From assembly GCA_030530315.1 (NCBI GenBank), contig JAUMVG010000011.1, positions 2,814 through 61,973 on the forward strand: 59,160 nt of DNA, in the 5' to 3' direction. Shown here one piece after another: positions 11,493 to 57,538 of the stretch; the first letter of the stretch is position 1; each line of letters begins with the position of its first letter. The translations under genes and the position numbers were made by a program. A model generated the notes under the pieces. That model ran no database searches, was not told the origin of the DNA, and saw only the letters and a list, made by a program, of their open reading frames with translations. This DNA comes from Clostridia bacterium (GTDB taxonomy: Bacteria > Bacillota > Clostridia > Christensenellales > Aristaeellaceae).

Positions 11493-12602
11493 CTATCGAA
11501 TGACGATCTTCACCCCGGGCCTGGCCCACTGGATGATCTTCTTCATCGTGCTCTGAGGCACGGCCACGCACCCGCCGGTGGACTTCTTCGAGCCGGTGCA
11601 GTGCAGGAAGATGCAGCTGCCCTTGCCGGGGGTGCCCTCGGCGTTGTAGTCGATGAACATGCAGTAGTTGTACACGCCCTTGTAGTTGATCAGGTACTCG
11701 TCCTTGCCGTTGTGCTTGCGGTCGGCGGTGCGCTCGTCCACCAGCTGATTGTAATACTTGCTGGAGGAGTCCCCGCACCAATAGTGGTACTTGGTCACCT
11801 TGGTATAGGGCATGTTGGCCCCGGGATCGTCCTTGATGCCGAAGGGGGTGGTCAGGTTGTAGGTCCCCACCGGAGTGCGCTCGTCGCCCGCGACGGTCTT
11901 GCCGAGGCCCTTGCGGCCCACGTAGGCCGTGCTCTCGAACAGCTTCTTCCAGGTGCCGTTCTGCTTCTCGTGCACGGACAGCGTGGCGGTGCTGCCGGAG
12001 ATGTAATCCACCAGTACGATCTGGTCCGTCTGGGACGCGCACTCCAGCTTCGCGGCCTCGCTGCCCTCCGCGGCGCTCTCCTCGGGCGCGGCGGCGGGGG
12101 CGGTCACGGTCACCTTGATGGTCAGCTTCTGCCTGCCGTACTTCACCTTCAGCTTGGTGGCGCCCGCCTTCTTGCCGGCGATCACGCCCTTCTTGCTGAC
12201 GGTGGCGATCTTCTTGTTGCCCATCGTGTACTTTTCCACGCCGCCCCGGGGCAGGCTGAACTTCTCGCCCACCTTCACCGAGACCTCCTTGGGCAGCACC
12301 ACGACGCCCAGCTTGGCCGACGCGCCGCCCCCGGAGGCGGTGATCACGGACTTGCCCACGGCCACGGCCTTGATCCTGCCCCCCGCGGCCAGGGCGACGC
12401 CCTCGTCGGAGCTCTCCCAGATCAGTTCCGAAGCCTTGATCCGCTTCACCTTGGGCTTCACGGTCACCGTGCCGCCCTCCTGCATCAGGCCGACCTTCAC
12501 CGGCATCTTTATGGTGGGCTTCTTCGCCGCCAGGGCGTCCGCCGGCAGCGCCAGCAGCAGCGCCGCCAGCAGCAGCGCGCTCAGCCATCTTCGCATGCTC
12601 AT
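11493..12602 (-). CDS. Secreted Ig-like / L,D-transpeptidase (YkuD) protein
   Basis: A 369-aa protein with a signal peptide (residues 1-26, ending ADALAA), two bacterial Ig-like (BIG2-type) repeats at about 30-110 and 112-180, a linker, and a C-terminal YkuD domain. The catalytic motif is HCTGSKKSTGGC (334-345), with Cys345 as the likely nucleophile. YkuD enzymes form 3-3 peptidoglycan cross-links or attach proteins to the wall. ATG 12602 follows GGGAGGAATACGAT. Ig repeats probably anchor or present the enzyme in the wall. Confidence 0.92.
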   Translation of the reverse strand: MSMRRWLSALLLAALLLALPADALAAKKPTIKMPVKVGLMQEGGTVTVKPKVKRIKASELIWESSDEGVALAAGGRIKAVAVGKSVITASGGGASAKLGVVVLPKEVSVKVGEKFSLPRGGVEKYTMGNKKIATVSKKGVIAGKKAGATKLKVKYGRQKLTIKVTVTAPAAAPEESAAEGSEAAKLECASQTDQIVLVDYISGSTATLSVHEKQNGTWKKLFESTAYVGRKGLGKTVAGDERTPVGTYNLTTPFGIKDDPGANMPYTKVTKYHYWCGDSSSKYYNQLVDERTADRKHNGKDEYLINYKGVYNYCMFIDYNAEGTPGKGSCIFLHCTGSKKSTGGCVAVPQSTMKKIIQWARPGVKIVIR

Positions 12603-12734
12603 ATCGTATTCCTCCCGCGAAGGTCGCCGGGGCGGCCTTCGCACACTTTCTCCATTCTATCCGCATCAGTATAGCACACAATCATGACGCCGCTGTGCCC
12701 ATACCCGGGAGAAAATACTCTATTTGCGCGTACT

Positions 12735-14662: not shown

Positions 14663-14704
14663 AAGCGCCTCCGGTTAGACACGGTTAATGATCTATCATC
14701 TTAG

Positions 14705-14733
14705 ATTATAGCGTTCGGAACAGCCCAATACAA
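14705..14733 (-). promoter_or_regulatory. Promoter of the P-type ATPase gene
   Basis: On the minus strand, -35 TTGTAT (14728-14733), a 17-bp spacer and a perfect -10 TATAAT (14705-14710). Confidence 0.6.
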
Positions 14734-14943
14734 TAATCAAATCACCCATCCTGTGTTTTACTGGACAAAATGGCGAAAATGTGCTGAATCTGACGTTATT
14801 AAATTATCGTAAATTACAGAACATTTTGTTTGATAAAATACATAACGGTGGACGTGTGCTTGGTTAAGTCAGTATAATAAATATGTGGTATGGGAAAAGT
14901 CTACAGTTACAGGCGGACCAGGAAAGGCTATCGGTGCGATATC

Positions 14944-15507
14944 ATGCGGACGGACAGGCGGGTACAAAAGACGCACGCCGCGATCATGCAGGCGTTTGAA
15001 AAGCTGCTGATGAAGAAGAGCTATGATGATATCACCATACAGGACATCATCGAAGCAGCGAACATCGGCCGCAGCACCTTCTATGCCCATTTTGAGACCA
15101 AGGACAGCCTGCTGGACGCGATTTGCAGCGGCCTGTTTGACCACATCTTCGCGGAGCACCTGAACGCGGAGCCGGGACACGACTTTTCCGGCAGCGAAGA
15201 GGACGTGGAGGCCAAGATCATCCACACGCTGTACCACCTCCAGGAGGACCGCAAACGGCTGTCCCGGATCTTCTCCTGCGAAAGCGCGGGGCTGTTCTGG
15301 GAGTACTTCCAGTTCCGGTTTTCCGCCTTCGTCCAGCGGGAGATCGTACCGGCGCTGACGGTGGATATCGTCGATGTTCCCAGGGACTACGTGGTGGATT
15401 TCATCTGCAACGCCTTTACTTCGACGGTGAAGTGGTGGTTCTACCAGGGGTTGAAGGCGACGCCGGAGGAAGTAAGCGGGTATTTCCTGCGCATGGCGCT
15501 CCGTTAG
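14944..15507 (+). CDS. TetR-family transcriptional regulator
   Basis: A 187-aa regulator. The N-terminal HTH reads RRVQKTHAAIMQAFEKLLMKKSYDDITIQDIIEAANIGRSTFYAHFETKDSLL, typical of TetR; the C-terminal ligand domain resembles the TetR_C type often found in Firmicutes. I use ATG 14944 because the -10 box TATAAT at 14873-14878 places transcription start only a few bases before the alternative ATG at 14890. The AGGAAAGG site is about 15 nt upstream, which is loose. It is divergent from the metal ATPase and followed by the cobalamin riboswitch. Confidence 0.85.
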   Translation: MRTDRRVQKTHAAIMQAFEKLLMKKSYDDITIQDIIEAANIGRSTFYAHFETKDSLLDAICSGLFDHIFAEHLNAEPGHDFSGSEEDVEAKIIHTLYHLQEDRKRLSRIFSCESAGLFWEYFQFRFSAFVQREIVPALTVDIVDVPRDYVVDFICNAFTSTVKWWFYQGLKATPEEVSGYFLRMALR

Positions 15508-15538
15508 CCGAACAAAATGAAACTGACAATTGAACAGG

Positions 15539-15726
15539 GCTTGCAGTGCTTCGGACGGCGACGAACCGCCCGGAGATAATAGAGAATCATGTGAAAGTCA
15601 TGAACGGGCCCGCCGCTGTAAGCGCAGATGGGTGACGCGAGGCGAAAGCCGGTCATTGGGGAAACCTGAGAAGGCCGCGTCAACCGGACGAGAGTCCATG
15701 CGCGAGTCAGAAGACCTGCTGCAAGC
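15539..15726 (+). ncRNA. Cobalamin riboswitch
   Basis: The region carries the hallmarks of an adenosylcobalamin aptamer: GAATCATGTGAAAGTC, the GCCGCTGTAAGC core segment, and the B12-box-like GAGTCAGAAGACCTGCTG. Closing helix P1 is formed by GCTTGCAG (15539-15546) and CTGCAAGC (15719-15726). It precedes the tetrapyrrole/corrin operon and should lower its expression when B12 is abundant. An open frame through this region is not a gene. Confidence 0.93.
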
Positions 15727-15776
15727 TGTAGATGCCATTGGACGGACTTTCCGATGGCTTATGCTATGGAAAAAGA

Positions 15777-15822
15777 CGGCTGTAGCAATGCACATGCGTG
15801 CGTTGCTGCAGCCGATTTTGTT
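15777..15822 (+). terminator. Riboswitch-controlled terminator
   Basis: CGGCTGTAGCAATGCAC pairs with GTGCGTTGCTGCAGCCG across a short loop and is followed by ATTTTGTT. It lies between the B12 aptamer and hemA, so the expression platform is most likely transcriptional attenuation. Confidence 0.8.
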
Positions 15823-15914
15823 GGGATTCTGCATCATCAGGAAGACGGAGCGTTTTCCGGGGCGGCGGGTTGCAATGGAACGCGCCGAAAATCATTTATA
15901 AGGAAGGAAAAACG

Positions 15915-17153
15915 ATGCCAATATTGATGGCGGGAATTGACCACAACAGGGCCGAGCTGGACATCAGGAGCCGTTTCTCATTCACAAAGCGGATGATGGA
16001 GGACGCCTTCACCTGGCTGAAGCGCCACTACCCGGTGGATGGCTGCGTCATCCTCTCGACCTGCAACCGCATGGAGATCTGGCTGAGCACGGGAGACGAA
16101 AGCCTCTCCCCCACGGAGGCGCTGTGCGCGTTCATGCAGGCCGATCCGGGAGAATGCGCGCGATACTTCGTCGAACGCCGGGAGCGGGAGGCCGTCGACC
16201 ACCTGTTCCGGCTGGCGGCGGGACTGGAATCCAAGGTCGTGGGCGAAGACCAGATCGTCACGCAGGTCAATGAAGCGCTGGCCTTCGCGCGCAGCTGCGA
16301 CGCCACGGGCCACGCTCTCGAGGCACTGTTCCGCATGGCCGTCACCGCCGCAAAGCGGGTGAAGACCCAGACGAGCCTGTCCCTCTCCGACAGCTCCGTG
16401 ATCCACGCCGCCCTCAAGGCGCTGCGCGGGCAGGGCCTGTCCTTCTCGGGAAAGAACTGCATGGTCATCGGCAGCGGCATGATGGGCAAGATCTCCGCCC
16501 AGGCCCTGCTGGACGACGGCGCAAGGGTCTGCGTGACGGTGCGCAAATACCGCAAGGGGATCGTCGACATCCCCGCGGGCTGCAGCCGCGTCGACTACGA
16601 CGACCGCCTTGCGCTGCTGCCGGAATGCGACCTGGTGGTCAGCGCCACCAGCAGCCCAAATTATACCCTGTGCCGCGAGGACCTCGAGGCCCTCCATCCG
16701 GGCCACCCCGTCACGCTGATCGACCTGGCCGTGCCCAGGGACATCGAAAAATCAGCGGAAAAATTGGACTGGGCGACCCTCTACGACATCGATTCCTTCG
16801 GCATCGACCTTGAATCGGAGAAGGTCCGGGAGAACCTGCGCCGGGCGGAGGCCATCCTGGAGGAGGAAAAGGAGGCATTTTTCGCCTGGTACGAGGGGCG
16901 CGACGTCGTCCCCCGGATCCAGGAACTGAAGGACATCGCGGCGGGAAACGTGGCGGCGCGCATGGTGCCTGCGTTCAAGCGCGCGCGTCTGGCGGTCGAC
17001 GCCAAGGAAAACCTGGAGCAGGAGATCGAAGGCGCGTCGTCGCGCATGATGAACAACCTGCTGTTCGGCATGCGCTCAAGGCTCTCGGAGGACGTGTTCC
17101 GGGAGTGCCTGGGCGCGATGGAAGCATCGCTGAAATCGTGGAAGCACAATTGA
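15915..17153 (+). CDS. hemA: Glutamyl-tRNA reductase
   Basis: A 412-aa enzyme that reduces glutamyl-tRNA to glutamate-1-semialdehyde, the first step of C5 tetrapyrrole synthesis. The catalytic cysteine is Cys50 in ILSTCNRMEIW. The NADPH domain (GKNCMVIGSGMMGKISAQAL) and the C-terminal dimerisation helices follow. The start at 15915 follows AAGGAAGG. It is the first gene after the cobalamin riboswitch and its terminator, so it is expected to be B12-repressed. hemB follows after 20 nt. Confidence 0.97.
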   Translation: MPILMAGIDHNRAELDIRSRFSFTKRMMEDAFTWLKRHYPVDGCVILSTCNRMEIWLSTGDESLSPTEALCAFMQADPGECARYFVERREREAVDHLFRLAAGLESKVVGEDQIVTQVNEALAFARSCDATGHALEALFRMAVTAAKRVKTQTSLSLSDSSVIHAALKALRGQGLSFSGKNCMVIGSGMMGKISAQALLDDGARVCVTVRKYRKGIVDIPAGCSRVDYDDRLALLPECDLVVSATSSPNYTLCREDLEALHPGHPVTLIDLAVPRDIEKSAEKLDWATLYDIDSFGIDLESEKVRENLRRAEAILEEEKEAFFAWYEGRDVVPRIQELKDIAAGNVAARMVPAFKRARLAVDAKENLEQEIEGASSRMMNNLLFGMRSRLSEDVFRECLGAMEASLKSWKHN

Positions 17154-17173
17154 AACAGGGAGGAATGAAGATA

Positions 17174-18157
17174 ATGGATATGATCGTAAGGCCCCGGCGG
17201 CTGCGGAGCAGCGAGGCTCTGCGCAAGATGGTCCGGGAGACGCGGGTGGACAAGGCGTCCCTGATCTACCCGATGTTCGTCATGGACGGCAAGGACAAGG
17301 TGGAGGAAATCGCCGCCATGCCCGGCCAGTACCGCTACACCGTGGATCGCATGGGCGAGGAACTGGACCGTCTGGCGGCGACGGGGGTTTCAAGCGTCAT
17401 GCTGTTCGGCATCCCGGCGCACAAGGACCCGGTGGGCAGCCAGGCCTATGCCCCGGACGGCATCGTCCAGCGGGCGGTGCTGCGGGCGAAGATGCTGCAC
17501 CCGGAGATGTACATCATCACGGACGTGTGCATGTGCGAGTACACCTCCCACGGGCATTGCGGCGTGCTCTGCGACCACGATGTCGATAACGACAAAACAC
17601 TGGAACTGCTGGCAAAGACGGCGCTCTCCCACGTGGAGGCCGGCGCGGACATGGTCGCCCCCTCGGATATGATGGACGGCCGGGTGCGGGCCATCCGCGA
17701 GGCGCTGGACAAAAACGGCTTCACCAATAAGCCCATCATGTCCTACGCGGTGAAGTTCGCCTCCTCCTTCTACGGCCCCTTCCGCGAGGCGGCGGGCTCC
17801 GCGCCCTCCTTCGGCGACCGCAAGAGCTACCAGATGGACTTCCACAACCGCCGCGAGGCCATCAAGGAGGCGCTGCTGGACGTGGACGAGGGCGCGGACA
17901 TCATCATGGTCAAGCCCGCCATGAGCTACCTCGACCTGGTGCGGGAGGTCCGCGACCGGGTGAACCTGCCCGTGGCCGCCTACAGCGTGTCCGGCGAATA
18001 CGCCATGGTGAAGGCCGCCGCGGCCAACGGCTGGATCGACGAGGAGAAGATCGTGTGCGAAATGGCGGTGGCCGCCTATCGCGCCGGCGCGGACATCTAC
18101 CTGACCTACTATGCCAAGGAACTGGCGCGATTCATCCAGGAAGGAAGGATTGGTTGA
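17174..18157 (+). CDS. hemB: Porphobilinogen synthase
   Basis: A 327-aa delta-aminolevulinate dehydratase that condenses two 5-aminolevulinates to porphobilinogen. Schiff-base lysines are Lys194 ([15 protein letters not shown]) and Lys247 ([10 protein letters not shown]). The catalytic zinc triad is present as C119, C121 and C129 in [14 protein letters not shown], so it is the zinc-dependent type. ATG 17174 is 9 nt after GGGAGGA; ATG 17165 is too close. hemL begins 1 nt after the stop. Confidence 0.97.
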
Positions 18158-18158
18158 C

Positions 18159-19430
18159 ATGAGATCGCAGGCACTGTTTGATCGCGCGAAATCGGTCATT
18201 CCCGGCGGCGTGAACAGCCCCGTGCGGGCCTTCGGCTCCGTGGGCATGGCGCCCCGGTTCATCGCCCGCGCGAAGGGCGACCGCATCTGGGACGTCGAGG
18301 GCAACGAATACATCGACTACATCGGCTCCTGGGGGCCGATGATCCTGGGCCACGCCCATCCCGCCGTGCTGGAGGCCGTGGAGCAGGCCGCGAGGGACGG
18401 GCTGAGCTTCGGCGCCGCCACCGAACGCGAGGTGGAGATGGCGGAGCTGATCTGCGACATCGTGCCCTCCGTCGAGATGGTGCGCATGGTCAATTCCGGC
18501 ACTGAGGCCGTCATGAGCGCCATCCGCGCGGCGCGGGGCTTCACAGGCAGGGACAAGATCGTCAAGTTCGCCGGCTGCTATCACGGCCACAGCGACGCCA
18601 TGCTGGTCAAGGCGGGCTCGGGCGTGATGACCCAGGGCATCCCCGGCAGCTCCGGCGTGCCCCGGGGCTGCACCCGGGACACGCTGACCGCCACCTACAA
18701 CGACCTGGACAGCGTAAAGGCGCTGTTCGAAGCCAATCCCAATGAGATCGCCGCCGTCATCGTAGAGCCCGTCGGCGCGAACATGGGCGTGGTGCTGCCC
18801 GAGCCGGGCTTCCTGGAGGGCCTGCGCGCCATCTGTGACGCAAGCGGCGCGCTGCTGATCTTCGACGAGGTCATCACCGGCTTCCGCCTGGCGCTGGACG
18901 GCGCCCAGGGCTTCTACGGCATTCGCCCGGACCTGACCACCTTCGGCAAGATCATCGGCGGCGGCATGCCCGTGGGCGCCTATGGCGGACGGCGGGACAT
19001 CATGTCCATGGTCGCCCCCACCGGCCCGGTGTACCAGGCGGGCACCCTCAGCGGCAATCCCGTGGCCATGGCGGCGGGGCTGGCGCAATTGAAGCTGCTC
19101 CGGGACACCCCCGGCCTCTACGGAAACCTGAACCGCGCCGGAGACGCGTTCTTCGCTGAACTGGATGGGATCCTCACCGGGGCAGGCGTACCCCACTGCA
19201 CGAACCACGTGGGCTCCCTGGGCTGCGTGTTCTTCACCGCGGAGCTGGTGAAGGACTACGCCGGCGCGCAGACCAGCGACACCGCGCGGTACACGGCCTA
19301 TTTCAGGCACATGCTGGACAGCGGCGTCTACCTCGCCCCCTCCCAGTTCGAGGCCATGTTCCTGTCCACGGCGCACACGCCCGAAGACTTGCAGAGGACG
19401 TTGAACGCCGTCCGGGAGTTCGTCAAATGA
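18159..19430 (+). CDS. hemL: Glutamate-1-semialdehyde 2,1-aminomutase
   Basis: A 423-aa PLP enzyme converting glutamate-1-semialdehyde to 5-aminolevulinate, acting directly after HemA. The PLP lysine is Lys264 in [32 protein letters not shown] and DEVITGFR are typical. AAGGAAGG precedes the ATG. Its stop overlaps the hemC start by 4 nt (ATGA), which couples translation. Confidence 0.97.
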
Positions 19431-20314
19431 GCGCGAAAATTGTCGTGGGCAGCCGCGAGAGCCGGCTCGCGGTGGTGCAGAGCATGACGGTGGTGGATTT
19501 TCTCAGGTCGACGCAGCCCGGGATCGACGTGGAGCTGTTGACAATGAAGACCACCGGCGATAAGATACTGGATAAGACCCTGGACAAGGTCGGCGGCAAG
19601 GGACTGTTCGTGAAGGAGCTGGACGTGGCCCTGCGGGAGCGCCGTGCGGACGTGACCGTCCACAGCCTGAAGGACATGCCCATGGAGGTGCCGGAGGACC
19701 TGCCGATCCTGTGCTGCTCCCGCCGGGAGGACCCGAGGGACGCGCTGGTGCTGCGGGAAGGCATGGCGGAACTGCCGGAGCATCCGAGCATCGGCACCTC
19801 CAGCCTGCGCCGCGCCATCCAGCTGAAGGCGCTTTTCCCGGACTGCGAGATCAGGCCGGTGCGGGGCAACCTGCAAACCCGGCTCCGCAAGCTGGACGAG
19901 GGCCAGTTTGACGCGCTGGTGCTGGCGGCGGCAGGCATGAAACGCATGGGCCTTGAAGCCCGCGTCAGCCGGATTTTCAGCGTGGACGAGATCCTTCCCG
20001 CGGCGGGCCAGGGCATCATGGCCGTGCAAGGCCGGGCGGATTTCGACCGGGCGCTGCTGGCGGGCTATGCCGACGCGGACGCCTGGCGCGCCGCGATGGC
20101 GGAGCGCGCCTTCGTGCACGAGCTGAACGGCGGCTGCACGTCGCCGGTGTGCGCCCACGCGGTGCTGGACAGCGAAGGCATCCGTCTGATCGGCCTGTAC
20201 TGGGAGGAATCGGACGGCAGCTGGCGCAAGGGATCCGTCGAAGGACCCTATGAAGAGGCCAAGCAGCTGGGTATAGCGCTCGCGCAGACGCTGCGCGACG
20301 GAAGGGAGGCGTGA
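19427..20314 (+). CDS. hemC: Hydroxymethylbilane synthase (porphobilinogen deaminase)
   Basis: A 295-aa enzyme that polymerises four porphobilinogens into hydroxymethylbilane. The dipyrromethane cofactor attachment site is Cys237 in [10 protein letters not shown], and the catalytic Asp is in HSLKDMP (residues 80-85). [10 protein letters not shown] and RGNLQTRL bind substrate carboxylates. It overlaps hemL and is followed 2 nt later by the fused cobA-hemD. Confidence 0.97.
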
Positions 20315-20316
20315 CC

Positions 20317-21855
20317 ATGGCGGGCAAGGTTTGGCTGGTCGGAGCCGGCCCCGGCGACGCGGGCCTGTTGACGATCAAGGGCCGGGAGGTGCTCTCCCAG
20401 GCGGAGGTCGTGGTCTACGACGCCCTGGTGTCAGGCAGCGTGCTGACACTGATCCCGGAGGGCGCAAAGCGGATCTTCGCGGGCAAGCGCTCGGGCAACC
20501 ACTTCCTTCGGCAGGAGGAGACCAACCGGGTGCTGCTGGAGGAGGCCCTTGACGGCAAGCGCGTGGTGCGCCTGAAGGGCGGCGACCCCTTCGTGTTCGG
20601 GCGCGGCGGCGAGGAGCTGGAGCTGCTGGTGGAACACGGCGTGCCCTTTGAGATCGTGCCGGGCGTCACCAGCGCCTTCGCGGTGCCGGCCTACAACGGC
20701 ATCCCCGTGACCCACAGGGATTTCTGCTCCTCGGTACACGTCATCACCGGCCACCGCCGGGCCGACCACACCTACGACATCGACTTCGAGGCGCTGGTAC
20801 GCACAAAGGGAACCCTGATCTTCCTGATGGGCATCGCCGCGCTGCCGGACCTCATGAACGGGCTGCTGGCGGCGGGCATGGACCCGGATATGCCCGCGGC
20901 GGTGCTGGAGCGCGGCACCACCGCGAAGCAGCGCCGGGTGAGCGCCACGGTGGGCACGCTGGAAAGGGTGTGCTCCGAGGCCGTCATCCAGACGCCCGCG
21001 ATCATCGTCGTGGGCCGCGCGTGCGCCCTCGCGGACACCTTCGCCTGGGCAGAGAAGCGCCCCCTGGCGGGCGTCCGGGCGCTGGTCACCCGGCCCAGGG
21101 AGCTGGTATCCACATTGGCGAACCTGCTGCGGGAAAGGGGCGCGGAGGTGCTGGAGCTGCCCGCCATCCGCACCGTGCCGGTGAAGGACATGGCGGCGGT
21201 GGACGCGGCCATTGAAGCGCTCGCCGAAGGCGGCTACGACTGGCTGGTGTTCACCAGCCCCAGCGGCGTGGGCATCTTCTTCGACCGGCTGATCGCGCAG
21301 CGCGACCTGCGGGCATTGGCGGGCGTGAAGCTGGCCGCCATCGGCCAGGGCACGCAGAAGGCGCTGCTCAGATACGGCCTCAAGGCGGACTTCCTGCCGT
21401 CTGTGTACGACGGCGAGACGCTGGGCCGGGAGCTGCGGGCGGTCTGCGCGCCGGGTTCCCGCATCCTCATCCCCCGGGCGGCCATCGGCAACCACGAACT
21501 GATCGATAAACTGGAGCAGGGCGACCGCCTGACCGTCACCGACGTCGCCACCTACGACACGGAATACGCATCCCCCGAGGTGTTCGACGTGCGCGGGATG
21601 TTTGAGCGGAGCCCGGAGGATCCGGCTCCGGGCCTGGACTTTGCCGTGTTCACCAGCGCCTCCACGGTGCGGGGTTTTGCCGCCGCCGTGCCGGACGCGG
21701 ATTTCAACCGGGTGAACGCCGTCTGCATCGGCCGGCAAACCGCCGCCGAGGCGCAGAAGCGCGGCATGCGCGTGTGGATCTCAGAGAGGGCCACGCTGGA
21801 AGCCCTGGTAAAGCGGGTGGAGGAAGCCGCGGACGAATTGAGAATTGAGAATTGA
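20317..21855 (+). CDS. cobA-hemD: Fused uroporphyrinogen-III methyltransferase / synthase
   Basis: A 512-aa bifunctional protein. Residues 1 to about 245 are the SUMT (CobA) domain (VWLVGAGPGDAGLLTIKG, GDPFVFGRGGEE, and VTSAFAVPAYNGIPVTHR), which makes precorrin-2 from uroporphyrinogen III. Residues about 255-505 are the HemD domain (PLAGVRALVTRP, WLVFTSPSGVGIFF), which cyclises hydroxymethylbilane. ATG 20317 is 7 nt from GAAGGGAGG. The last residues (ELRIEN) and the stop are read from the start of an intergenic repeat element, so the natural C-terminus may have been replaced. Confidence 0.95.
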   Translation: MAGKVWLVGAGPGDAGLLTIKGREVLSQAEVVVYDALVSGSVLTLIPEGAKRIFAGKRSGNHFLRQEETNRVLLEEALDGKRVVRLKGGDPFVFGRGGEELELLVEHGVPFEIVPGVTSAFAVPAYNGIPVTHRDFCSSVHVITGHRRADHTYDIDFEALVRTKGTLIFLMGIAALPDLMNGLLAAGMDPDMPAAVLERGTTAKQRRVSATVGTLERVCSEAVIQTPAIIVVGRACALADTFAWAEKRPLAGVRALVTRPRELVSTLANLLRERGAEVLELPAIRTVPVKDMAAVDAAIEALAEGGYDWLVFTSPSGVGIFFDRLIAQRDLRALAGVKLAAIGQGTQKALLRYGLKADFLPSVYDGETLGRELRAVCAPGSRILIPRAAIGNHELIDKLEQGDRLTVTDVATYDTEYASPEVFDVRGMFERSPEDPAPGLDFAVFTSASTVRGFAAAVPDADFNRVNAVCIGRQTAAEAQKRGMRVWISERATLEALVKRVEEAADELRIEN

Positions 21856-21998
21856 CAATTGAGAATGGAGTATGGAGTATGGAGGTACAAATCCTTCCGG
21901 ATTTGTTTGATATATTCAGATTCTCTGCCGCTATTCAATCAAAGAAATCCATAGGATTTCCACAGGAATTCTCAATTCTCCATTCTCAATTCTCAATT
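21835..21998. repeat. MITE-like element with AATTGAGAATTGAG terminal inverted repeats
   Basis: About 35-bp imperfect terminal inverted repeats made of AGAATTG heptads flank the element; left 21835-21870, right about 21964-21998, with roughly 32 of 35 positions matching. Inside are ACAAATCC/GGATTTGT (21887-21906) and GAAATCC/GGATTTC hairpins (about 21944-21960). No transposase is encoded. It lies within the operon between cobA-hemD and cbiL, and its left end provides the cobA-hemD stop codon. Confidence 0.85.
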
Positions 21999-22032
21999 AA
22001 ACCAAACAGACGTTGATATGGAGGTAGAACAT

Positions 22033-22725
22033 ATGAAGCGTGGTATTGCCTACGGCGTGGGCGTCGGCCCCGGCGACCCTGAACTGATGACCTACAGGGC
22101 GGCGAAGCTGATCCGGGAGAACGACGTGATCGCCGTGCCCGGCAGGGACCCGAAGGAGGCCGTGGCCTACAAAATCGCGGCGGGCGTGGTGCCCGAGATC
22201 GCGGACAAGGAGCTGGTGCCCATCTACATGCCCATGGTCAAGGACCGGGAACTGATCGACAAAGAGCATCAGAAGGCCGCGAAGCTGGTGGAGAGCATAC
22301 TGGATACGGGCAAAAATCTGGTGTACATCACCCTGGGAGACCCCACCATCTACTGCACCTTCAGCTACATCCAGCACTACCTGGAGGCGGACGGCTACCA
22401 GGTGGAGCTGGTCCCCGGCATCAGCTCCTTCTGCGCCGCGGCGGCGCGGCTGGGCCTCCCGCTGGTGGAGTGGGACGAGCAGCTGCACGTGATACCCGCG
22501 GTCCACAAGCTGGACCACGCTCTGGAGCAGCCGGGTACCTATGTGCTGATGAAGTCCGCCAGCCAGATGGCCGCCGTCAAGGAGATGCTCAGAAAGAGCG
22601 GCCGGGCGGTCCAGATGGTGGAGAATTGCAGCATGGACAACGAAAAGCTGTATCGAAGCCTGGACGAGATTCCCGACGACGCCGGGTATTTCTCCCTCAT
22701 CATAGCGAAGGAAAACCATGATTGA
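22033..22725 (+). CDS. cbiL: Precorrin-2 / cobalt-factor II C20-methyltransferase
   Basis: A 230-aa SAM-dependent methyltransferase of the tetrapyrrole family. YGVGVGPGDPELMTYRAAKLI at the N-terminus is typical of CbiL/CobI, followed by ITLGDPTIYCTFSYI and VPGISSFCAAAARLG. It methylates C20 of cobalt-factor II to give cobalt-factor III. The ribosome-binding site GGAGGTAG lies 6 nt before ATG 22033. Its end overlaps the next ABC gene by 8 nt. With cbiK in the operon, the anaerobic, early-cobalt route is likely. Confidence 0.93.
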   Translation: MKRGIAYGVGVGPGDPELMTYRAAKLIRENDVIAVPGRDPKEAVAYKIAAGVVPEIADKELVPIYMPMVKDRELIDKEHQKAAKLVESILDTGKNLVYITLGDPTIYCTFSYIQHYLEADGYQVELVPGISSFCAAAARLGLPLVEWDEQLHVIPAVHKLDHALEQPGTYVLMKSASQMAAVKEMLRKSGRAVQMVENCSMDNEKLYRSLDEIPDDAGYFSLIIAKENHD

Positions 22726-23551
22726 GCTAAAGAACCTGACCAAGAAATTCGACGACTTCACCGCGGTGGACCATCTGAGCCTGCGCATTGAGACCGGGGA
22801 GTTCTTCGGGCTCCTGGGCCCCAACGGCGCGGGCAAGACCACCACCCTGTCCATGATGTCCACGGTGCTGCTGCCCACGGAGGGCGAGATACTGATCGAC
22901 GGGCAGAAGCTGGACCGCAAGGCCAGCGCGCAGAAGCGCAAGCTGTCCGTCATCACCCAGGAGTATTCCATGCGCCAGGACATGAACATGGACGAGGTCA
23001 TGGAGTATCAGGGGCGGCTGTACTATCTGCCGAGGAAGGTCATCAAGCAAAAGACCGACGAGCTTCTGGCGTTCGCCGGTCTGATCGAGTATCGCCACCG
23101 CACGGTGCGGCACCTGTCCGGCGGCATGAAGCGCAAGCTGATGATCTGCCGGGCGCTGATGATCGAGCCGGAGATCCTGCTGCTGGACGAGCCCACGGCG
23201 GGCATGGACGCGCTGTCCCGCAGGCAGATGTGGAACCTCCTGCGGCGGGTCAACGGAGACAGGATGACCATCGTGCTGACCACCCACTACATCGAGGAGG
23301 CCCAGGCGCTGTGCGGCCGCGTGGCGCTGATCAACCAGGGGAAGCTGCAAAAGCTGGACAGCCCCGACAACCTGATTCACGAGCTGGGCGCCTTCGCCGT
23401 GGACGAGACCTCGCAGGACAACCTGGTCAGCCGGTATTTCCACAACCGCGACGACGCGATCGCCTACCTTTCCAAGGCGGGAAGCGACGCCGCGCTGCGG
23501 GCCACGACGCTGGAGGACGTGTTCGTGGATGTGGCGGGGAGGAAGCTGTAG
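22718..23551 (+). CDS. ABC transporter ATP-binding protein in the corrin operon
   Basis: A 277-aa ATPase of the ABC-2/DrrA type: Walker A GPNGAGKTT, signature LSGGMKRK, Walker B LLLLDEPTAGMD, and a C-terminal tail ending TTLEDVFVDVAGRKL, typical of DrrA/NodI-like proteins. It starts inside the end of cbiL (8-nt overlap), and its stop is immediately followed by the permease start, so all three are co-translated. The substrate is unknown; placement among corrin genes suggests a tetrapyrrole, a cobalt compound or a related metabolite. Confidence 0.93.
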   Translation: MIELKNLTKKFDDFTAVDHLSLRIETGEFFGLLGPNGAGKTTTLSMMSTVLLPTEGEILIDGQKLDRKASAQKRKLSVITQEYSMRQDMNMDEVMEYQGRLYYLPRKVIKQKTDELLAFAGLIEYRHRTVRHLSGGMKRKLMICRALMIEPEILLLDEPTAGMDALSRRQMWNLLRRVNGDRMTIVLTTHYIEEAQALCGRVALINQGKLQKLDSPDNLIHELGAFAVDETSQDNLVSRYFHNRDDAIAYLSKAGSDAALRATTLEDVFVDVAGRKL

Positions 23552-24283
23552 ATGGGCATCATAACCGTTCTTTGGGAAAAATGGGTGGAGTTCAAGCGGG
23601 ACTTCTACAAGATCACCGTCGCGGCGATGATCTCCCCTCTGATGTACCTGATCATATTCGGCATGGGCATCCAGACCACGTCCCACGGGGAACCCTACCT
23701 GCACTTCCTGATCCCGGGCATCGTGGCCATGGCGACCATGACGGGTTCTTTCAGCGCCATCGCCCAGAACATGAGCGTCCAGCGCCTGTATGAGAAGGCG
23801 CTGGACCAGATCATGGTCTCCCCCACCCCGCTGTGGCAGTTTATACTGGGCCAGGTGATCGGCGGCAGCCTGCGGGGCATGTACGCGGGCGGCATCATAC
23901 TGCTGCTGACCGCGCCGATCCGCACAGACCTGATCTTCAACGGGGTGTCCATACTGATCATGTTCCTGAACGGCACGGTGTTTTCCACCATCGCGCTGGT
24001 GATGTCGTTCCTGGCCAAGAGCTATACCGACGCGCCGCGCTTTACCTCCTACATCATCATGCCGATGTCGTTCCTGTGCAACACCTTCTTCTCCACCGAC
24101 CAGATGCCCTCGGGCTTCCGGCAGGTCATTTCCATACTGCCCCTTTCCCAGGCCAGCGCCATGATCCGCGCCATATCCAACGGCGAAGCGCCGGGCTGGT
24201 TCGGGTTCGCGGTGCTGCTGGCCTACCTGACTGTATTTGGCGCGATTTCGGTGGCGTTTATCTACCGCAAAAAGAACCTGTGA
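23552..24283 (+). CDS. ABC-2 type permease in the corrin operon
   Basis: A 243-aa membrane protein with about six helices and the ABC-2/NodJ-like signature (SFSAIAQNMSVQRLYEKALDQIMVSPTPLWQFILGQVIGGSLRGMYAG). It begins directly after the ATPase stop codon without a separate ribosome-binding site spacer, so it partners that ATPase. ABC-2 systems of this type are usually exporters. cbiK follows 9 nt downstream. Confidence 0.9.
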   Translation: MGIITVLWEKWVEFKRDFYKITVAAMISPLMYLIIFGMGIQTTSHGEPYLHFLIPGIVAMATMTGSFSAIAQNMSVQRLYEKALDQIMVSPTPLWQFILGQVIGGSLRGMYAGGIILLLTAPIRTDLIFNGVSILIMFLNGTVFSTIALVMSFLAKSYTDAPRFTSYIIMPMSFLCNTFFSTDQMPSGFRQVISILPLSQASAMIRAISNGEAPGWFGFAVLLAYLTVFGAISVAFIYRKKNL

Positions 24284-24292
24284 AGAGGTGCC

Positions 24293-25105
24293 ATGATGAA
24301 TCGAACCGCACTTTTGGCGGTCAGCTTTGGAACCGCCTACGAGGAGACGCGCAAGAAGACCCTTGACGCGATTGAAGCGGATCTGAGGGCGGCCTTCCCG
24401 GAACGCGCCTTCTACCGGGCGTGGACCAGCGGCACGATCCGCAGGAAGCTGGCCCTGGAGAAGGGCATTCAGATCGACTCCGCTTCCGAAGCCGTGGATC
24501 GGATGCTGGGCGACGGCGTGACGGACCTGCTGGTTCAACCCACCCATATGATGGCGGGCGGCGAATACGAGGCCCTTCGCCAGGCGATAGGCGCCCATGC
24601 CCGCCGATTCGACACCCTCCGCATGGGCGAACCGCTGCTGGCGGATGTCGAAAGCCTGTCCGATCTCGCGGACGCGATCCTGTCCACCTATGCCGAATTG
24701 CGGGACGATGAGCTGCTGGCGCTGATGGGGCACGGAAGCGCCGACAGCCGCTTTGCCGCCTATGAGCTGCTGGACGAGCGCTTCCGGGCCAGCGGGCACG
24801 CCAACATCTGCGTGGGCACCGTGGAGCACGAGCCCGGCATCGCCCCGGTGCTGGCGCGCGTAAACGCCAGAAGACCGCGGAAGGTCACCATCGCGCCGCT
24901 GCTGGTGGTCGCGGGCGGGCACGCAATCAGGGACATGGCGGGCGACGGACCGGAGTCGTGGAAATCCCAAATTGGCGCAACAGGGGTCCAGACGGAGTGC
25001 GTTCTCAAGGGCATGGGCGAATACGCGGCGGTGCGCGCTCTGTACGTCAAGCATGCCCGGCGCGCAAAGCAAATCCAGGCGGAGGCTGTGAACGATGCGA
25101 CATAG
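24293..25105 (+). CDS. cbiK: Sirohydrochlorin cobaltochelatase CbiK
   Basis: A 270-aa anaerobic cobaltochelatase that inserts Co2+ into sirohydrochlorin. Metal-binding histidines are in LMGHGSADSR and VVAGGHAIRDMAGD; the N-terminus TALLAVSFGTAYEETR is typical. There is no signal peptide, so it is cytoplasmic. Two consecutive ATGs (24293, 24296) follow GAAGAGGTG; the second has better spacing. Its 3' end overlaps the next gene by 11 nt. With SirC and CbiL it gives cobalt-factor III. Confidence 0.95.
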   Translation: MMNRTALLAVSFGTAYEETRKKTLDAIEADLRAAFPERAFYRAWTSGTIRRKLALEKGIQIDSASEAVDRMLGDGVTDLLVQPTHMMAGGEYEALRQAIGAHARRFDTLRMGEPLLADVESLSDLADAILSTYAELRDDELLALMGHGSADSRFAAYELLDERFRASGHANICVGTVEHEPGIAPVLARVNARRPRKVTIAPLLVVAGGHAIRDMAGDGPESWKSQIGATGVQTECVLKGMGEYAAVRALYVKHARRAKQIQAEAVNDAT

Positions 25106-26186
25106 TGTACAGAAGCTGGCGGCCTGGCTCCTGCTGGCAACGCTGCTGGTTGCGCTCCGGTCCGCGCTCGCCGTGACGATCCTGACGCCGAACAGAACGG
25201 ACTATGCGGACCGGTTGGCGAGGGCCGTGCAAGCCATTCGGGATCGCGAGGTCGGCAGCTATGGCATGGTCCCCATTTACGGTCGGGACATCGAGGACGG
25301 CACCTATGAGATAAAGGTGGAATCCACCTCGGTGTTTTTCAAGATCATCGCAGCGGAGCTGACCGTGAGCGGCGATGAGATGACGGCCCGCATCACCATC
25401 GGCAGCCACAGCTACCTGTACGTCTACATGGGCACGGCGGAGCAGGCGGGCCACGCCCCCGAGGAAGAATGGATCCCGGGGGACGCAGGGCAGCGGTACA
25501 CGATGTTCACCATTCCCGTTCCCGCGCTCAACGCGCCCTTTGAATGCGCGGCCTACAGCAAAAACCGCCAGTTGTGGTACGACCGGCAGCTGCTCATCGA
25601 CGCCTCGGCGCTTCCAGAGGGGGCGCTGGCCTTCGAGCTGCCCGACTACGCGCTGGCGGAAAAGGCCGTCCTCGATTTTGAGCCGGACGGCGAAGCGGCT
25701 TTGGGCGACGAGGCGCCGGAGACGGTCACGCCTGCGCTCCTGGAGCCGGTCTCCCTGCCCCGCTCCGACGGCGAATACTCCATAGAGGTCAACCTGGCGG
25801 GCGGCAGCGGCAGGGCGAACGTCAGCTCTCCCACGCTGCTGATCATTCGGGAGGGCAAGGCCTGGGCCCGCCTGCTCTGGAGCAGTCCCTACTACGATTA
25901 CATGGTCGTCGGCGAGACCATCTATGAAAACCTGACCACGGACGGCGGCAATTCCACCTTCGAGATTCCCATTACCGCAATGGACGCGCCGATGCAGGTC
26001 ATCGCGGACACCACCGCCATGGGCGATCCCCTGGAGATCGAATACACGCTGACCTTCTACTCCGAGTCGCTGGGCGACAAGAGCCAGATTCCCCAGGAGG
26101 CGGCAAAGAAGGTGCTGTATATTTCGCTGGCGATCATCGTCGTAGGCGGGATCCTGAACCATTTTGTGAAGAAGAAGAGGAAGTAG
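25095..26186 (+). CDS. Surface protein with two NEAT-like domains
   Basis: A 363-aa exported protein: signal peptide at residues 1-26, two related beta-rich domains at about 69-195 (DGTYEIKVESTSVFF...) and 225-322 (DGEYSIEVNLAGGSGRANVSSPTLLII... LLWSSPYYDYMVVGE), a C-terminal membrane helix at 340-356 and a KKKRK tail. The second domain resembles the NEAT-like domains of putative heme/iron-binding surface proteins in Clostridia, including the WSSPxYDYM stretch. It overlaps cbiK by 11 nt and is 2 nt before sirC, so it belongs to the B12-regulated operon. I infer tetrapyrrole or metal binding; this is not proven. Confidence 0.75.
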   Translation: MRHSVQKLAAWLLLATLLVALRSALAVTILTPNRTDYADRLARAVQAIRDREVGSYGMVPIYGRDIEDGTYEIKVESTSVFFKIIAAELTVSGDEMTARITIGSHSYLYVYMGTAEQAGHAPEEEWIPGDAGQRYTMFTIPVPALNAPFECAAYSKNRQLWYDRQLLIDASALPEGALAFELPDYALAEKAVLDFEPDGEAALGDEAPETVTPALLEPVSLPRSDGEYSIEVNLAGGSGRANVSSPTLLIIREGKAWARLLWSSPYYDYMVVGETIYENLTTDGGNSTFEIPITAMDAPMQVIADTTAMGDPLEIEYTLTFYSESLGDKSQIPQEAAKKVLYISLAIIVVGGILNHFVKKKRK

Positions 26187-26188
26187 CC

Positions 26189-26683
26189 ATGGCGGACTAT
26201 CCCCGTTTCCCGATGTTCATCGACCTTTCCACAAGGCATGTGGTCGTGGTCGGCGCAGGCAAAATCGCCGCCCGCCGCGCGGCTGCGCTGGTGCAGTTTA
26301 CGCCACACGTCACCGTCATCGCCCCGGAAGTCCATCCGGACCTCGAAGCGCTGGCCCTCGCAGGCAGGCTGCGCCTCGTTCGGAAAGAATATGATATGAC
26401 CGACATCAGCGGCGCCGACATGGTGCTCGCCGCGACCGACGACGCCGAACTGAACGCCACGATCTGCGACGATTGCAGGCTTCGCGGCATCCTCGCGAAT
26501 GCTTCAAGCGACAGGGCGCTGTGCGATTTCTACTTCCCCGGCATCGTTCGGGAGGGCAATATCGTGGTCGGCGTGACCGCCAGCGGCGAAGACCACGCGC
26601 GCGCCAGGCGCGTCACCGAGCAGATCAGGGGCGTCCTTCAAGGCGCCGAAGGCAATGGCTCCGCGCCGAAAACCGGAAAATGA
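26189..26683 (+). CDS. sirC: Precorrin-2 dehydrogenase
   Basis: A 164-aa NAD-dependent enzyme that oxidises precorrin-2 to sirohydrochlorin, the substrate of CbiK. It matches the N-terminal part of CysG/Met8: FPMFIDLSTRHVVVVGAGKIAARRAAAL with a GxGxxAxxR nucleotide site, and ATDDAELNATI and NASSDRALCDFYFPGIV. It lacks the methyltransferase part of CysG, which is supplied by cobA-hemD. It is the last gene of the operon. Confidence 0.93.
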   Translation: MADYPRFPMFIDLSTRHVVVVGAGKIAARRAAALVQFTPHVTVIAPEVHPDLEALALAGRLRLVRKEYDMTDISGADMVLAATDDAELNATICDDCRLRGILANASSDRALCDFYFPGIVREGNIVVGVTASGEDHARARRVTEQIRGVLQGAEGNGSAPKTGK

Positions 26684-26964: not shown

Positions 26965-28344
26965 TCACTTCTTTCGGGGCATCGCGTTCACGCACAGTCC
27001 CTCGGCGTCGTGGGCGGCCTCGGCGATGATCTCCGAGACCGTGGGATGGGGGTGGATGACCTCGGACAGGCTCTGCACGGTGCCGCCGTGGCTCATCAGC
27101 GCGGTGACCTCCGCGATCATGTCCGTGGCCCGGGGCGCCATGATCTGGCAGCCCAGGATCTCGCCGGTGGCTTTGTCCGCCACCAGCTTGACCAGGCCCG
27201 TGGACTCGTTCATCACCATGCAGCGGCCGTTGGCGGCGATGTTGAAGCCGCCGGTCACCACCTCACGTCCCTGGGCCCGGGCGGCCTCCTCGGTGAGGCC
27301 CACGTAGCCGATCTCCGGGGAGGTGTAGATGCAGGCGGGCACCCGGTCGTAGCGCATGGCTTTGTCCTTGCCCGCGCAGTTTGCCGCCGCCACCATGCCC
27401 TGGGCGGAGGCCACGTGGGCCAGCTGGATCTTGCCGGTGATGTCGCCGATGGCGTACACGTCCTTCACGGCGGTGCGCAGGTGGTCGTCCACCTCGATGA
27501 AGCCCCGCCGGTCGGTGGCAAGGCCGATGGCTTCCAGCCCGCAGTCCCGGGTCATGGGTCTGCGGCCTGCGCAGACGAGCACCGTGGCGGCGGTTCGCTC
27601 ATCCGCCCTGCCGTCCTGCTCGAAGGTCACCTTGCGGCCCCTCTCCACGCCCGTCACCCTGGCGCCGAGGATGAACTCCACGCCCTTCTTCTTCAGCAGC
27701 GCCTTCAGCTTGGCGGTGATCTCCGAAGAGACGCCCGGCAGGATGTCCGGCATCATCTCCACGATGGTCACCTTCTTGCCCAGGGAAGCGAACAGCGTGG
27801 CGAACTCCAGGCCGATCACGCCGCCGCCGATGATGATCGCGCCGCTGGGCAGGTTGACGGCCGCCAGCACGTCGTCGCTGGTGTAGGCGGTCTCCATGCC
27901 CGGCACCGGCGGGCACGCGGGTTCGCTGCCCATGGCCAGGATCAGCTTGTCGTAGGTGAGCCTACGGCCGTTTACATCCATCTCGTTGGGTCCGGTCAGC
28001 CTGCCGAAGCCCCGGACGACCTCCACGCCGTGGGCCTTCTCCAACGCCTCGATGCCGCTGACCAGCTTCTTCACCTTGTCGTCCTTGAATGCCGCCAGCT
28101 TCGGGTAGTCCAGCGTCAGTCCGTCCAGTATCAGCCCGAAGGCGCTGCCGGCCTTGGCCTCGGCATACGCCTCCGCGCCGTGAAGCAGCGCCTTGGTGGG
28201 AATGCAGCCCCGGTTCAGGCAGGTGCCCCCCAGCTCGCGGGCCTCGACGAGCGCCGTCTTCAGTCCCAGCTGCGCGCAGCGAATCGCGCACTCGTAGCCG
28301 CCCGGCCCGCCGCCGAGCACCGCAACGTCGAATTCATGGGTCAT
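26965..28344 (-). CDS. lpdA: Dihydrolipoyl dehydrogenase
   Basis: A 459-aa FAD/NAD flavoprotein: N-terminal GGGPGGYECA, redox disulfide GGTCLNRGCIPTK (Cys42, Cys47), second dinucleotide site IIIGGGVIGLEFA, and C-terminal HPHPTVSE with the catalytic His-Glu pair. It has no lipoyl domain. It reoxidises lipoyl groups of 2-oxoacid dehydrogenase or glycine-cleavage complexes, none of which is encoded nearby. GGAGGT lies 6 nt before ATG 28344. It follows rubredoxin on the same strand behind a terminator-like hairpin. Confidence 0.95.
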   Translation of the reverse strand: MTHEFDVAVLGGGPGGYECAIRCAQLGLKTALVEARELGGTCLNRGCIPTKALLHGAEAYAEAKAGSAFGLILDGLTLDYPKLAAFKDDKVKKLVSGIEALEKAHGVEVVRGFGRLTGPNEMDVNGRRLTYDKLILAMGSEPACPPVPGMETAYTSDDVLAAVNLPSGAIIIGGGVIGLEFATLFASLGKKVTIVEMMPDILPGVSSEITAKLKALLKKKGVEFILGARVTGVERGRKVTFEQDGRADERTAATVLVCAGRRPMTRDCGLEAIGLATDRRGFIEVDDHLRTAVKDVYAIGDITGKIQLAHVASAQGMVAAANCAGKDKAMRYDRVPACIYTSPEIGYVGLTEEAARAQGREVVTGGFNIAANGRCMVMNESTGLVKLVADKATGEILGCQIMAPRATDMIAEVTALMSHGGTVQSLSEVIHPHPTVSEIIAEAAHDAEGLCVNAMPRKK

Positions 28345-57510: not shown

Positions 57511-57538
57511 ATTTCGGCACAGGCGCTTGCGCGCGTCA

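Follow-up and report, generated by a model that had tools for sequence, protein, structure and literature searches.

A conserved ABC-2 pump and surface protein in a B12-riboswitch tetrapyrrole operon of a Clostridia bacterium, with a probable role near cobalt insertion

In the window analysed here, that is, the whole stretch of 59,160 nt from Clostridia bacterium GCA_030530315.1 (contig JAUMVG010000011.1, positions 2,814–61,973; coordinates below follow window numbering), a riboswitch-controlled operon of early tetrapyrrole genes also encodes an ABC-2 pump and a surface protein. These two very probably act in B12 biosynthesis, close to the step of cobalt insertion, because their partnership is conserved, B12 riboswitches precede them, cbiD accompanies them in 48 of 50 genomes, a distant pump homologue lies by CobN, and a secreted CbiK is encoded in an operon with a paralogous surface protein. 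What they handle near the cobalt-insertion step is probably a tetrapyrrole or cobalt; that they form a dedicated anaerobic-B12 module working by export and capture is possible and is put forward tentatively.

The operon is headed by a cobalamin riboswitch aptamer (15527..15737; Rfam RF00174, 88.1 bits, gathering score 31.5), and between it and hemA sits a terminator-like hairpin (15777..15814; 17 pairs and then a T-rich tail), which is likely the expression platform. These elements and the operon genes are all on the forward strand, the genes in the order hemA-hemB-hemL-hemC-cobA/hemD-cbiL-ABC ATPase-ABC-2 permease-cbiK-surface protein-sirC; Pfam and NCBIfam matches confirmed the genes other than that of the surface protein, and the Rfam match the riboswitch, both of which the first-pass annotation had read from the letters. 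The enzymes are glutamyl-tRNA reductase HemA (15912..17153; TIGR01035, 256.5 bits, cut-off 209.55), porphobilinogen synthase HemB (17165..18157; NF006762, 494 bits, cut-off 297), glutamate-1-semialdehyde aminomutase HemL (18159..19430; TIGR00713, 617.9 bits, cut-off 527.3), porphobilinogen deaminase HemC (19427..20314; PF01379, 258.1 bits), a CobA/HemD fusion of uroporphyrinogen III methyltransferase and synthase (20311..21855; TIGR01469, 301.7 bits, cut-off 185; PF02602, 205.6 bits), the C20 methyltransferase CbiL, which converts cobalt-factor II to III (22033..22725; TIGR01467, 206 bits, cut-off 163.25), and, as last gene, the NAD-binding part of a SirC-like precorrin-2 dehydrogenase (26189..26683; TIGR01470, 107.4 bits, cut-off 62.3; PF13241). 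Together with CbiK they make the early anaerobic set from ALA to cobalt-factor III complete in the operon (HemA, HemL, HemB, HemC, HemD, CobA, SirC, CbiK, CbiL), the end point that had been claimed for these enzymes. According to the ORF coordinates, which bear out the joints noted earlier, cbiL and the ATPase gene overlap by 8 nt, the permease ATG directly abuts the ATPase stop, and cbiK overlaps the surface-protein gene by 11 nt; the gap from the latter to sirC is 2 nt. The gene after sirC (26965–28344), dehydrogenase-like by our reading, is on the opposite strand.

The operon arrangement is beyond chance, because the run cbiL-ATPase-permease-surface protein recurs in 15/15 loci that were taken from 13 further members of the genus and also in a wider set, the best 80 of 192 permease loci, by permease identity, in a species-level genome collection. 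In these 80 nearest loci the ATPase adjoins the permease without exception (80/80), and in 75 the surface protein is encoded no more than 4.5 kb from the permease, as counted with a profile iterated on those same loci; of the five loci without a nearby surface protein, four are on contigs that stop at most 1.3 kb from the permease, and in L128 the protein is absent from its usual slot. The conserved adjacency with the ABC-2 and NEAT-like genes, on which the first-pass annotation had staked its proposal, is therefore present in relatives. By a tblastn-based count, used instead of HMM-based counts that also pick up cobA, cbiL is directly upstream of the pump in 67/76 loci, and in three loci where the order is broken (L181, L182, L183) pump and surface protein still remain together as divergent neighbours. 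AbcP identity across the 80 kept loci is 77–97%, a range biased upward since the loci were picked by permease identity; among 32 loci with five core genes, likewise chosen by AbcP, AbcP and AbcA are the best-conserved operon proteins (compared with their window counterparts, they have median identities of 84% and 80%, against 77% for hemB and 74% for cbiL). One module locus, L123, comes from Lachnospiraceae bacterium FE2018, whose record bears no MAG label. The cbiD count (48/50, two of the positives, G460 and G477, matching in fragments only) and the CbiM count given below are based on 50 genomes that carry loci of the 80, taken from 66 candidates of which 16, many on short contigs, were left out by hand; the remaining loci of the 80 are mostly on contigs already covered in genus genomes, and G435, whose contig has the same length (52503), appears to be the same genome as G124. 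In the full-text literature no description of this pump–surface protein module was recognised, and nothing was found on CbiK with a NEAT domain, NEAT with a cobalamin riboswitch, or a "cobaltophore".

In 27/80 module loci a riboswitch precedes the pump genes on their own strand, a count that requires the same strand and a position before abcA, not an unbroken gene run, and that L071 enters through two weak fragments; the sequence-only model used (R1) had 8 of its 10 training sequences within the scanned sources, and 5 of the 27 counted loci are training loci. The ATPase gene is the first gene in two loci, cbiL or abcA in 12 of the 27 (hand count), and the riboswitch precedes the pump even in loci without an adjacent hem gene. 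An Rfam scan, with upstream DNA at least partly covered, gave no riboswitch at gathering score in 8 module loci (L068, L080, L095, L110, L129, L112, L181, L183). A distant pump homologue with 46–50% identity was found in L185 and L186; in L185 a B12 riboswitch is followed by Nik-type importer genes, the pump homologue, ChlD/ChlI-like genes and the cobaltochelatase CobN (1664.6 bits, cut-off 1468), and the gene order in L186 is the same. The first-pass annotation had placed pump and surface protein in the same pathway as the enzymes; their conserved place in the operon and the B12 control seen even without a hem neighbour uphold this, whereas substrate, direction and ligand are carried forward only in conditional form.

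The pump itself combines an ABC ATPase, AbcA (22718..23551; PF00005, 116.3 bits), with an ABC2_membrane permease of 243 aa, AbcP (23552..24283; PF01061, 74.0 bits, cut-off 26.9), and is thus of the ABC-2 type; a sequence search of the permease against the PDB gave no match at E<=0.01. Among NCBIfam models, those of DrrA/NodI/YadH type fit the pair best, as would suit an unrelated drug exporter with a surface protein merely riding along in the operon. The pair scores below the curated DrrAB drug-exporter cut-offs, however (the DrrA model TIGR01188, 242.8 vs 312.45; TIGR01247, 62 vs 223.05), so that the drug-exporter homology that would have spoken against the first-pass proposal does not appear on these thresholds; the conserved partnership and the homologue beside CobN under a B12 riboswitch also argue against a passenger, and this explanation is very improbable.

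The surface protein (25095..26186; 363 aa) has an N-terminal hydrophobic signal and a predicted C-terminal membrane anchor, and the C-terminus is hydrophobic in 67/68 of its relatives with a complete end. Its AlphaFold2 model (mean pLDDT 74.5, pTM 0.48) predicts two beta-rich domains and a C-terminal helix at 334–362. The ORF gave no Pfam or NCBIfam match at 1e-3, and Pfam, with its NEAT model PF05031 (gathering cut-off 32.8 bits), had no match even at E<=10; PF05031 matched 4/15 genus relatives weakly (best E 7.9e-4) and, in a set of 7 family members, three, the best at 24.4 bits and so under the cut-off. A profile search against the PDB had as best match 3sik_A, a NEAT domain, at E 0.28. Of the earlier description as a NEAT-like, membrane-anchored protein, the anchor agrees with these features, and membership in the NEAT family is weakly supported. 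In one chain (L054), a domain of this family precedes a Peripla_BP_2 binding protein, and FecC-type permeases follow the module in 15/80 loci, so importer genes in the same operon are a minority. Such links, like the B12 riboswitch control, would fit a surface receptor for corrinoids, cobalt-tetrapyrroles or heme, with the ABC-2 pair powering hand-over or release from it instead of exporting a precursor; ABC-2 pairs are known as exporters, however, and pure uptake would not need the cbiD found in nearly all module genomes, and such acquisition is rather unlikely.

The chelatase of the operon, a cytoplasmic sirohydrochlorin cobaltochelatase CbiK (24293..25105), matches PF06180 with 219.3 bits (cut-off 26.2) and the NCBIfam model SiroCoChCbiK with 229.2, below the cut-off of 400, and keeps His147, Glu178 and His210. 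The part of PMC7689651 on class II cobaltochelatases names two catalytic histidines of CbiK, His145 and His207 in Salmonella; the window's His147 and His210 probably correspond to these, as equated by motif position, the alignment being made of sequences other than that of Salmonella. Both align in 30/30 operon-slot CbiK, and among 28 other CbiK His147 is found in 28 and His210 in 23, with gaps in 5. The first-pass annotation named cbiK as a fixed neighbour, but its place as a core partner of the pump was rejected: besides the window it fills the slot in 2/15 genus loci and is missing from it in 13, and in the wider set no more than 30/80 loci have it immediately after the permease. In the genome of the window, a second B12 riboswitch precedes a signal-peptide-bearing (secreted) CbiK and a paralogous surface protein. 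Long-frame CbiK (at least 380 aa, a length used as a stand-in for secretion) has a riboswitch upstream in 19/19 genus loci examined; its specificity to module genomes was considered and discarded (40/53 vs 14/27 controls, p=0.04). The secreted CbiK and paralogous surface protein also occur in same-genus, cbiD-positive, pump-less genomes (L056, L189), where the empty pump search concerned a set without a positive genome and the same query matched in another set, and the pair is therefore not dependent on the pump. A third CbiK is present in 14/14 module genomes of the genus, nine of its loci having 63–88% identity to the L187 copy. The proposal that module genomes lack a cytoplasmic chelatase, which would force cobalt insertion outside, was accordingly dropped; with cytoplasmic CbiK in the operon and in the third copy, insertion need not occur outside. 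Nor does the third CbiK always travel with a Nik importer, since NikB was adjacent only in G000 and G023 among ten loci, most with about 1.5 kb of flank.

CbiM (PF01891) is not in the operon, and the genome's one CbiM match lies on another contig (C52). Besides CbiM the genome has a B12-riboswitch Nik-type importer and therefore does not lack cobalt import; Nik/Cnt-like importer genes stand in one of its CbiK operons. The genome is estimated to be 6% contaminated, and links between its contigs therefore need support from relatives. CbiM is rarer in module genomes (16/50) than in the other cbiD-positive Clostridia sampled (104/133, p=1.7e-8), and rarer against family-matched controls (16/53 vs 15/27, p=0.03; 27 of 28 cbiD-positive permease-less genomes of families f21, f26 and f40, with the CbiM-bearing G349 left out), with a difference within the genus that is not significant (4/14 vs 5/7, p=0.16). 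As these p values rise with closer matching and the statistics ignore phylogeny, a module that simply replaces CbiMNQO was rejected. Of the 16 module genomes with CbiM, two have frames shorter than 320 aa, one of these a 138 aa fragment, and frame lengths in the class sample are those of the matches listed.

On the export-and-capture reading, the one we tentatively favour, B12 scarcity would switch the module on through the riboswitch, AbcA/AbcP would carry a metal-free product of the upstream enzymes, the tetrapyrrole sirohydrochlorin or precorrin-2, to the outer side of the membrane, and the NEAT-like protein would hold it there for cobalt pick-up, aided in many genomes by secreted CbiK; a FecBCD- or Nik-type importer would bring the ring, now loaded with cobalt, back in for further processing by CbiL. 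We infer here the substrate, the direction of transport, the loading outside and the return of the ring. The same gene order and B12 control would suit overflow protection, in which a photoreactive or metal-scavenging tetrapyrrole left metal-free by cobalt shortage is pumped out and held or passed on by the surface protein, with no return; the pump indeed keeps company with biosynthesis (cbiL, 67/76) more often than with importer genes (FecC-type, 15/80). Overflow leaves unexplained, however, why secreted CbiK and paralogous surface proteins have B12 riboswitches of their own and why the operon of the distant pump includes a Nik-type importer, and it is a doubtful possibility. That finished corrinoid or late intermediates are released to the community, or that early precursors feed relatives keeping only late cbi genes, is improbable: B12 shuts off such riboswitch operons, the wrong logic for exporting surplus B12. 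In its favour, late cbi genes stand together without early genes alongside in 2/3 same-genus pump-less genomes (L192, L194). In the third, L193, cbiD was the only one seen (gene names in L192–L194 are by our reading). Salvagers of tetrapyrrole precursors are also documented in PMC6461909, the available excerpt of which names no exporter dedicated to an early precursor of B12.

A further form of the export-and-capture reading, unlikely in our estimate, makes sirohydrochlorin a cobalt-collecting metallophore, exported by the ABC-2 pair, docked on the NEAT-like protein, loaded by secreted CbiK and re-imported via FecBCD or Nik; an exporter-type pump is joined by importer genes in some loci. If it were true, taking up cobalt and inserting it during B12 synthesis would be one extracytoplasmic process. 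Members of gut communities share B12 precursors and cobalt and compete for them, and with a conserved pump and surface protein placed behind B12 riboswitches the export of an early precursor becomes directly testable: either part of B12 would be metallated outside the membrane, or precursors would be released for neighbours, and a surface-protein family that escapes Pfam models would gain a function. Their handling of a B12 precursor or cobalt at the cell surface may be a role for which no description was found.

Among known systems, anaerobic cobalamin operons under cobalamin riboswitches resemble the window in CobA, CbiL, CbiK, SirC and the riboswitch family, whereas the window adds the ABC-2 pair and the two-domain anchored surface protein and has CbiM outside the operon. 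Opine-metallophore Cnt systems pair an exporter with a Nik-type importer; the metallophore reading would share the exported chelator and imported loaded complex, with Nik/Cnt-like genes found both beside the distant pump homologue and in one CbiK operon of the window's genome, but its chelator would be a tetrapyrrole, its cargo is conjectural, and no opine synthase came to notice. The Dehalobacter restrictus corrinoid operon-2 (CobN, Mg-chelatase subunits and FepBCD/BtuCDE-like transporters) is like L185 in joining CobN, chelatase subunits and ABC transporters, and its description, in the available part of PMC4285132, mentions neither an ABC-2 pair nor a NEAT-like protein. CbtJKL of Sinorhizobium meliloti, a B12-riboswitch-controlled ABC cobalt importer with a BtuF-like binding protein according to an excerpt of PMC7689651, is likewise a B12-riboswitch ABC system, and FecC-type permeases do follow some module loci; CbtJKL is an importer, however, whereas the module pair is of ABC-2 type, lacks a binding protein and keeps the surface protein as its partner. 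In the Iht system of Porphyromonas gingivalis, the CbiK-like lipoprotein IhtB and a binding-protein-dependent ABC importer are thought to handle heme (excerpt of PMC10913741); here, too, there are secreted or lipoprotein-like forms of CbiK as well as genes of FecBC type, and the module differs from Iht in its B12-riboswitch control, anchored surface protein, ABC-2 pump and de novo tetrapyrrole synthesis.

The operon is headed by a cobalamin riboswitch (15527–15737, + strand, 88.1 bits), which is separated from the first of its eleven + strand genes by a strong terminator-like hairpin (15777–15814, +), and it lies in an assembly (G000, window at C60:2814–61973) of 3.58 Mb in 144 contigs that is 94% complete and 6% contaminated. 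Judged by their families, HemA, HemL, HemB, HemC and HemD would convert glutamyl-tRNA to uroporphyrinogen III, CobA and SirC would methylate and oxidize this product, CbiK could insert cobalt, and CbiL would methylate the cobalt product. Between cbiL and sirC lie the genes of an ABC ATPase (abcA) and an ABC-2 permease (abcP), together referred to as the pump, followed by cbiK and a 363-aa surface protein (25095–26186); the gene overlaps described in the first-pass annotation recur in the ORF coordinates. The late cbi genes are found on a separate contig (L052), where CbiD-, CbiC-, CbiJ/E-, CbiH-, CbiG- and CbiF-like products were read from the frames, and Pfam TP-methylase and CbiD matches support them. 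Just upstream of the riboswitch (12809–15507), an E1-E2 (P-type) ATPase is divergent from a TetR-type regulator, a relative of which also adjoins the operon in loci L037, L039 and L044. The window further contains, on the − strand, a FeoB with a fused N-terminal FeoA domain (8454–10802), a protein that joins a long N-terminal part to a YkuD L,D-transpeptidase domain (11493–12644) and an FMN riboswitch (57534–57652, 112.6 bits).

All 15 loci taken from 13 further genomes in the genus keep the order cbiL, ATPase, permease and surface protein; sirC directly follows the surface protein in 12 of them, and cbiK occupies its slot in 2. When the permease alignment was used as a query against a species-level genome collection, 192 relatives were found; the nearest are MAGs of uncultured Clostridiales, and some come from goat, sheep or buffalo rumen or gut samples. 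The best 80 of the 192 (77–97% identity) carry labels such as Clostridiales, Lachnospiraceae, Oscillospiraceae and Mogibacterium. Among them, the ATPase adjoins the permease in all 80, the surface protein lies within 4.5 kb of it in 75, and cbiL immediately precedes the ATPase in 67 of the 76 where this position is visible. In four of the remaining five loci, the contig ends within 1.3 kb of the permease; in the fifth, L128, sirC comes straight after cbiK, ahead of the contig end. Even where the order is broken, the partners stay together: in L181 and L182, from near-complete genomes, pump and surface protein form a divergent pair, and in L183 they are neighbours, none of the remaining operon genes being found within 17 kb. 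Hence, of the neighbourhood proposed in the first-pass annotation, the adjacency of pump and surface protein is conserved in relatives and cbiK is the variable part. Downstream of sirC, L113 (9875–12810) and similar loci carry genes for a VWA/metallopeptidase-like protein (DUF2201), seen in 8 loci, and for a MoxR-like AAA ATPase, seen in 7; two of these loci are labelled Mogibacterium.

The surface protein is predicted to begin with a hydrophobic stretch, to fold into two beta-rich domains and to end in a helix that could anchor it in the membrane. Of 68 relatives whose end is complete, 67 have a hydrophobic C-terminus, the exception being a cut frame, and 65 have the hydrophobic stretch at the N-terminus. 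The window protein has no Pfam match at E ≤ 10; the Pfam NEAT model PF05031 matches 4 of the 15 genus proteins weakly and 3 of 7 tested family members, at best with 24.4 bits, below its cut-off of 32.8. The best PDB match of a wider family profile is 3sik_A (E 0.28), which we take to be a NEAT domain. The earlier name "NEAT-like" describes the protein fairly but does not amount to NEAT membership by the curated test. In L054, a related domain is followed, within a single chain, by a Peripla_BP_2 binding protein.

The strongest sign of what the pump may do comes from genomes G418 (L185) and G350 (L186), which encode a pump homologue at 46–50% identity. The G418 operon (L185, 1597–16764) begins with a B12 riboswitch (1597–1795, 116.2 bits) and continues with Nik-type permeases, a NikA-like binding protein and two ATPases; abcA and abcP come next, then ChlD-like and ChlI-like proteins, a CobN that scores above its curated threshold, and a FecB-like binding protein. 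Over the stretch covered in G350, the genes follow one another in the same way; the riboswitch was seen in L185. Since the same ABC-2 pump lineage accompanies a different cobaltochelatase class and a different importer, the pump probably serves cobalt-tetrapyrrole handling.

Cobalamin riboswitches shut down the operons they control once B12 is abundant. In a survey with a model that uses sequence alone and was derived from ten Rfam-detected riboswitches, a + strand riboswitch precedes abcA in 27 of the 80 loci, possibly a lower bound because many loci end inside hem genes; by hand count, cbiL or abcA is the first gene after it in 12 of the 27 (L070, L074, L079, L085, L086, L090, L093, L101, L102, L104, L107 and L108). 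In L102 and L104 this is the ATPase itself, with no cbiL or hem gene upstream within the stretch covered. In eight module loci (L068, L080, L095, L110, L112, L129, L181 and L183) no riboswitch reaches the gathering score before the module, so that a B12 riboswitch of its own stands before the pump often but not in every case. Such a pump is called for under B12 shortage, which is the wrong logic for exporting surplus B12 and points either to fetching something or to relieving a build-up. The latter, overflow protection, is the main rival to the reading favoured here, in which the pump would export a metal-free ring to the surface protein, cobalt would be loaded onto it there, and the ring would be returned into the cell; we infer its substrate, direction and return. 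Export, capture and return are favoured because the operon supplies everything up to the cobalt-receiving ring, CbiL acts on the cobalt ring, and a FecC-type permease lies downstream of the module in 15 of the best 80 loci; in the loci examined, FecC-type permeases adjoin binding-protein and ATPase genes of the same type.

A second CbiK operon of the own genome (L053, 8590–10862, contig C68) combines a B12 riboswitch (8590–8781) with genes for a signal-peptide CbiK and for a surface-protein paralogue of two domains, a layout shared by L056 and L189 (G019 and G018). In the genus, this long-frame CbiK (325–438 aa) has a same-strand riboswitch upstream in 19 of 19 loci examined, and a signal region or its tail was seen in all nine of those on the + strand. 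L087 (7443–8864) and L092 (14504–16105) encode two CbiK copies in one frame with a lipoprotein-like N-terminus (LAAC); two copies also occur in a 1500-aa frame of G429. The metal-site histidines are kept in all 30 operon-slot CbiK, and in 28/28 and 23/28 of other CbiK, the missing five being gaps. A third operon (L187, 7807–14316, contig C87) has a B12 riboswitch (7807–8001) and encodes a cytoplasmic CbiK, then an importer of the Nik/Opp type made up of permeases, a binding protein and two ATPases; the NikB-like permease scores 375.8 bits (cut-off 350). The cobalt importer component CbiM occurs in 16 of 50 module genomes versus 104 of the 133 remaining cbiD-positive genomes in the class-wide sample, uncorrected for phylogeny and with the completeness of the 50 not established. 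The contrast weakens to 16/53 versus 15/27 against controls from the three families, other than the own one, with a close permease in that sample, and is 4/14 with the pump versus 5/7 without it inside the genus, kinship being ignored in both. Given this weakened contrast, the long-frame CbiK (380 aa or more, a proxy for secretion) in 14 of the 27 control genomes, and the presence of CbiM, a B12-controlled Nik-type importer and a cytoplasmic CbiK together in the own genome, cobalt loading outside the cell is possible but not required.

The pump is uncommon in the class: of 392 sampled genomes, 5 encode a close permease, the own one included, and 2 encode a more distant form. All 7 contain cbiD, as do 48 of the 50 module genomes reached through loci; in the genus, a search at E ≤ 1e-40 did not find the permease in the 4 genomes without cbiD or in 7 with it, some of them incomplete. 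Two genus genomes without the pump (G019, L192; G020, L194) have late cbi genes together with no early genes alongside, as read from frames, and are possible late-only consumers.

Among the matches listed, and judged by titles and abstract beginnings, no description of the module was recognised in the open-licence literature, and no ABC-2 pair is among the systems mentioned in the part consulted of a Ni/Co transporter survey (PMC2667541). As far as the consulted parts of these sources go, cobalt importers, CbiK and B12 riboswitches on cobalt uptake are covered in PMC7689651, the Iht system in PMC10913741, tetrapyrrole-precursor salvagers in PMC6461909, and a CobN operon in Dehalobacter in PMC4285132.
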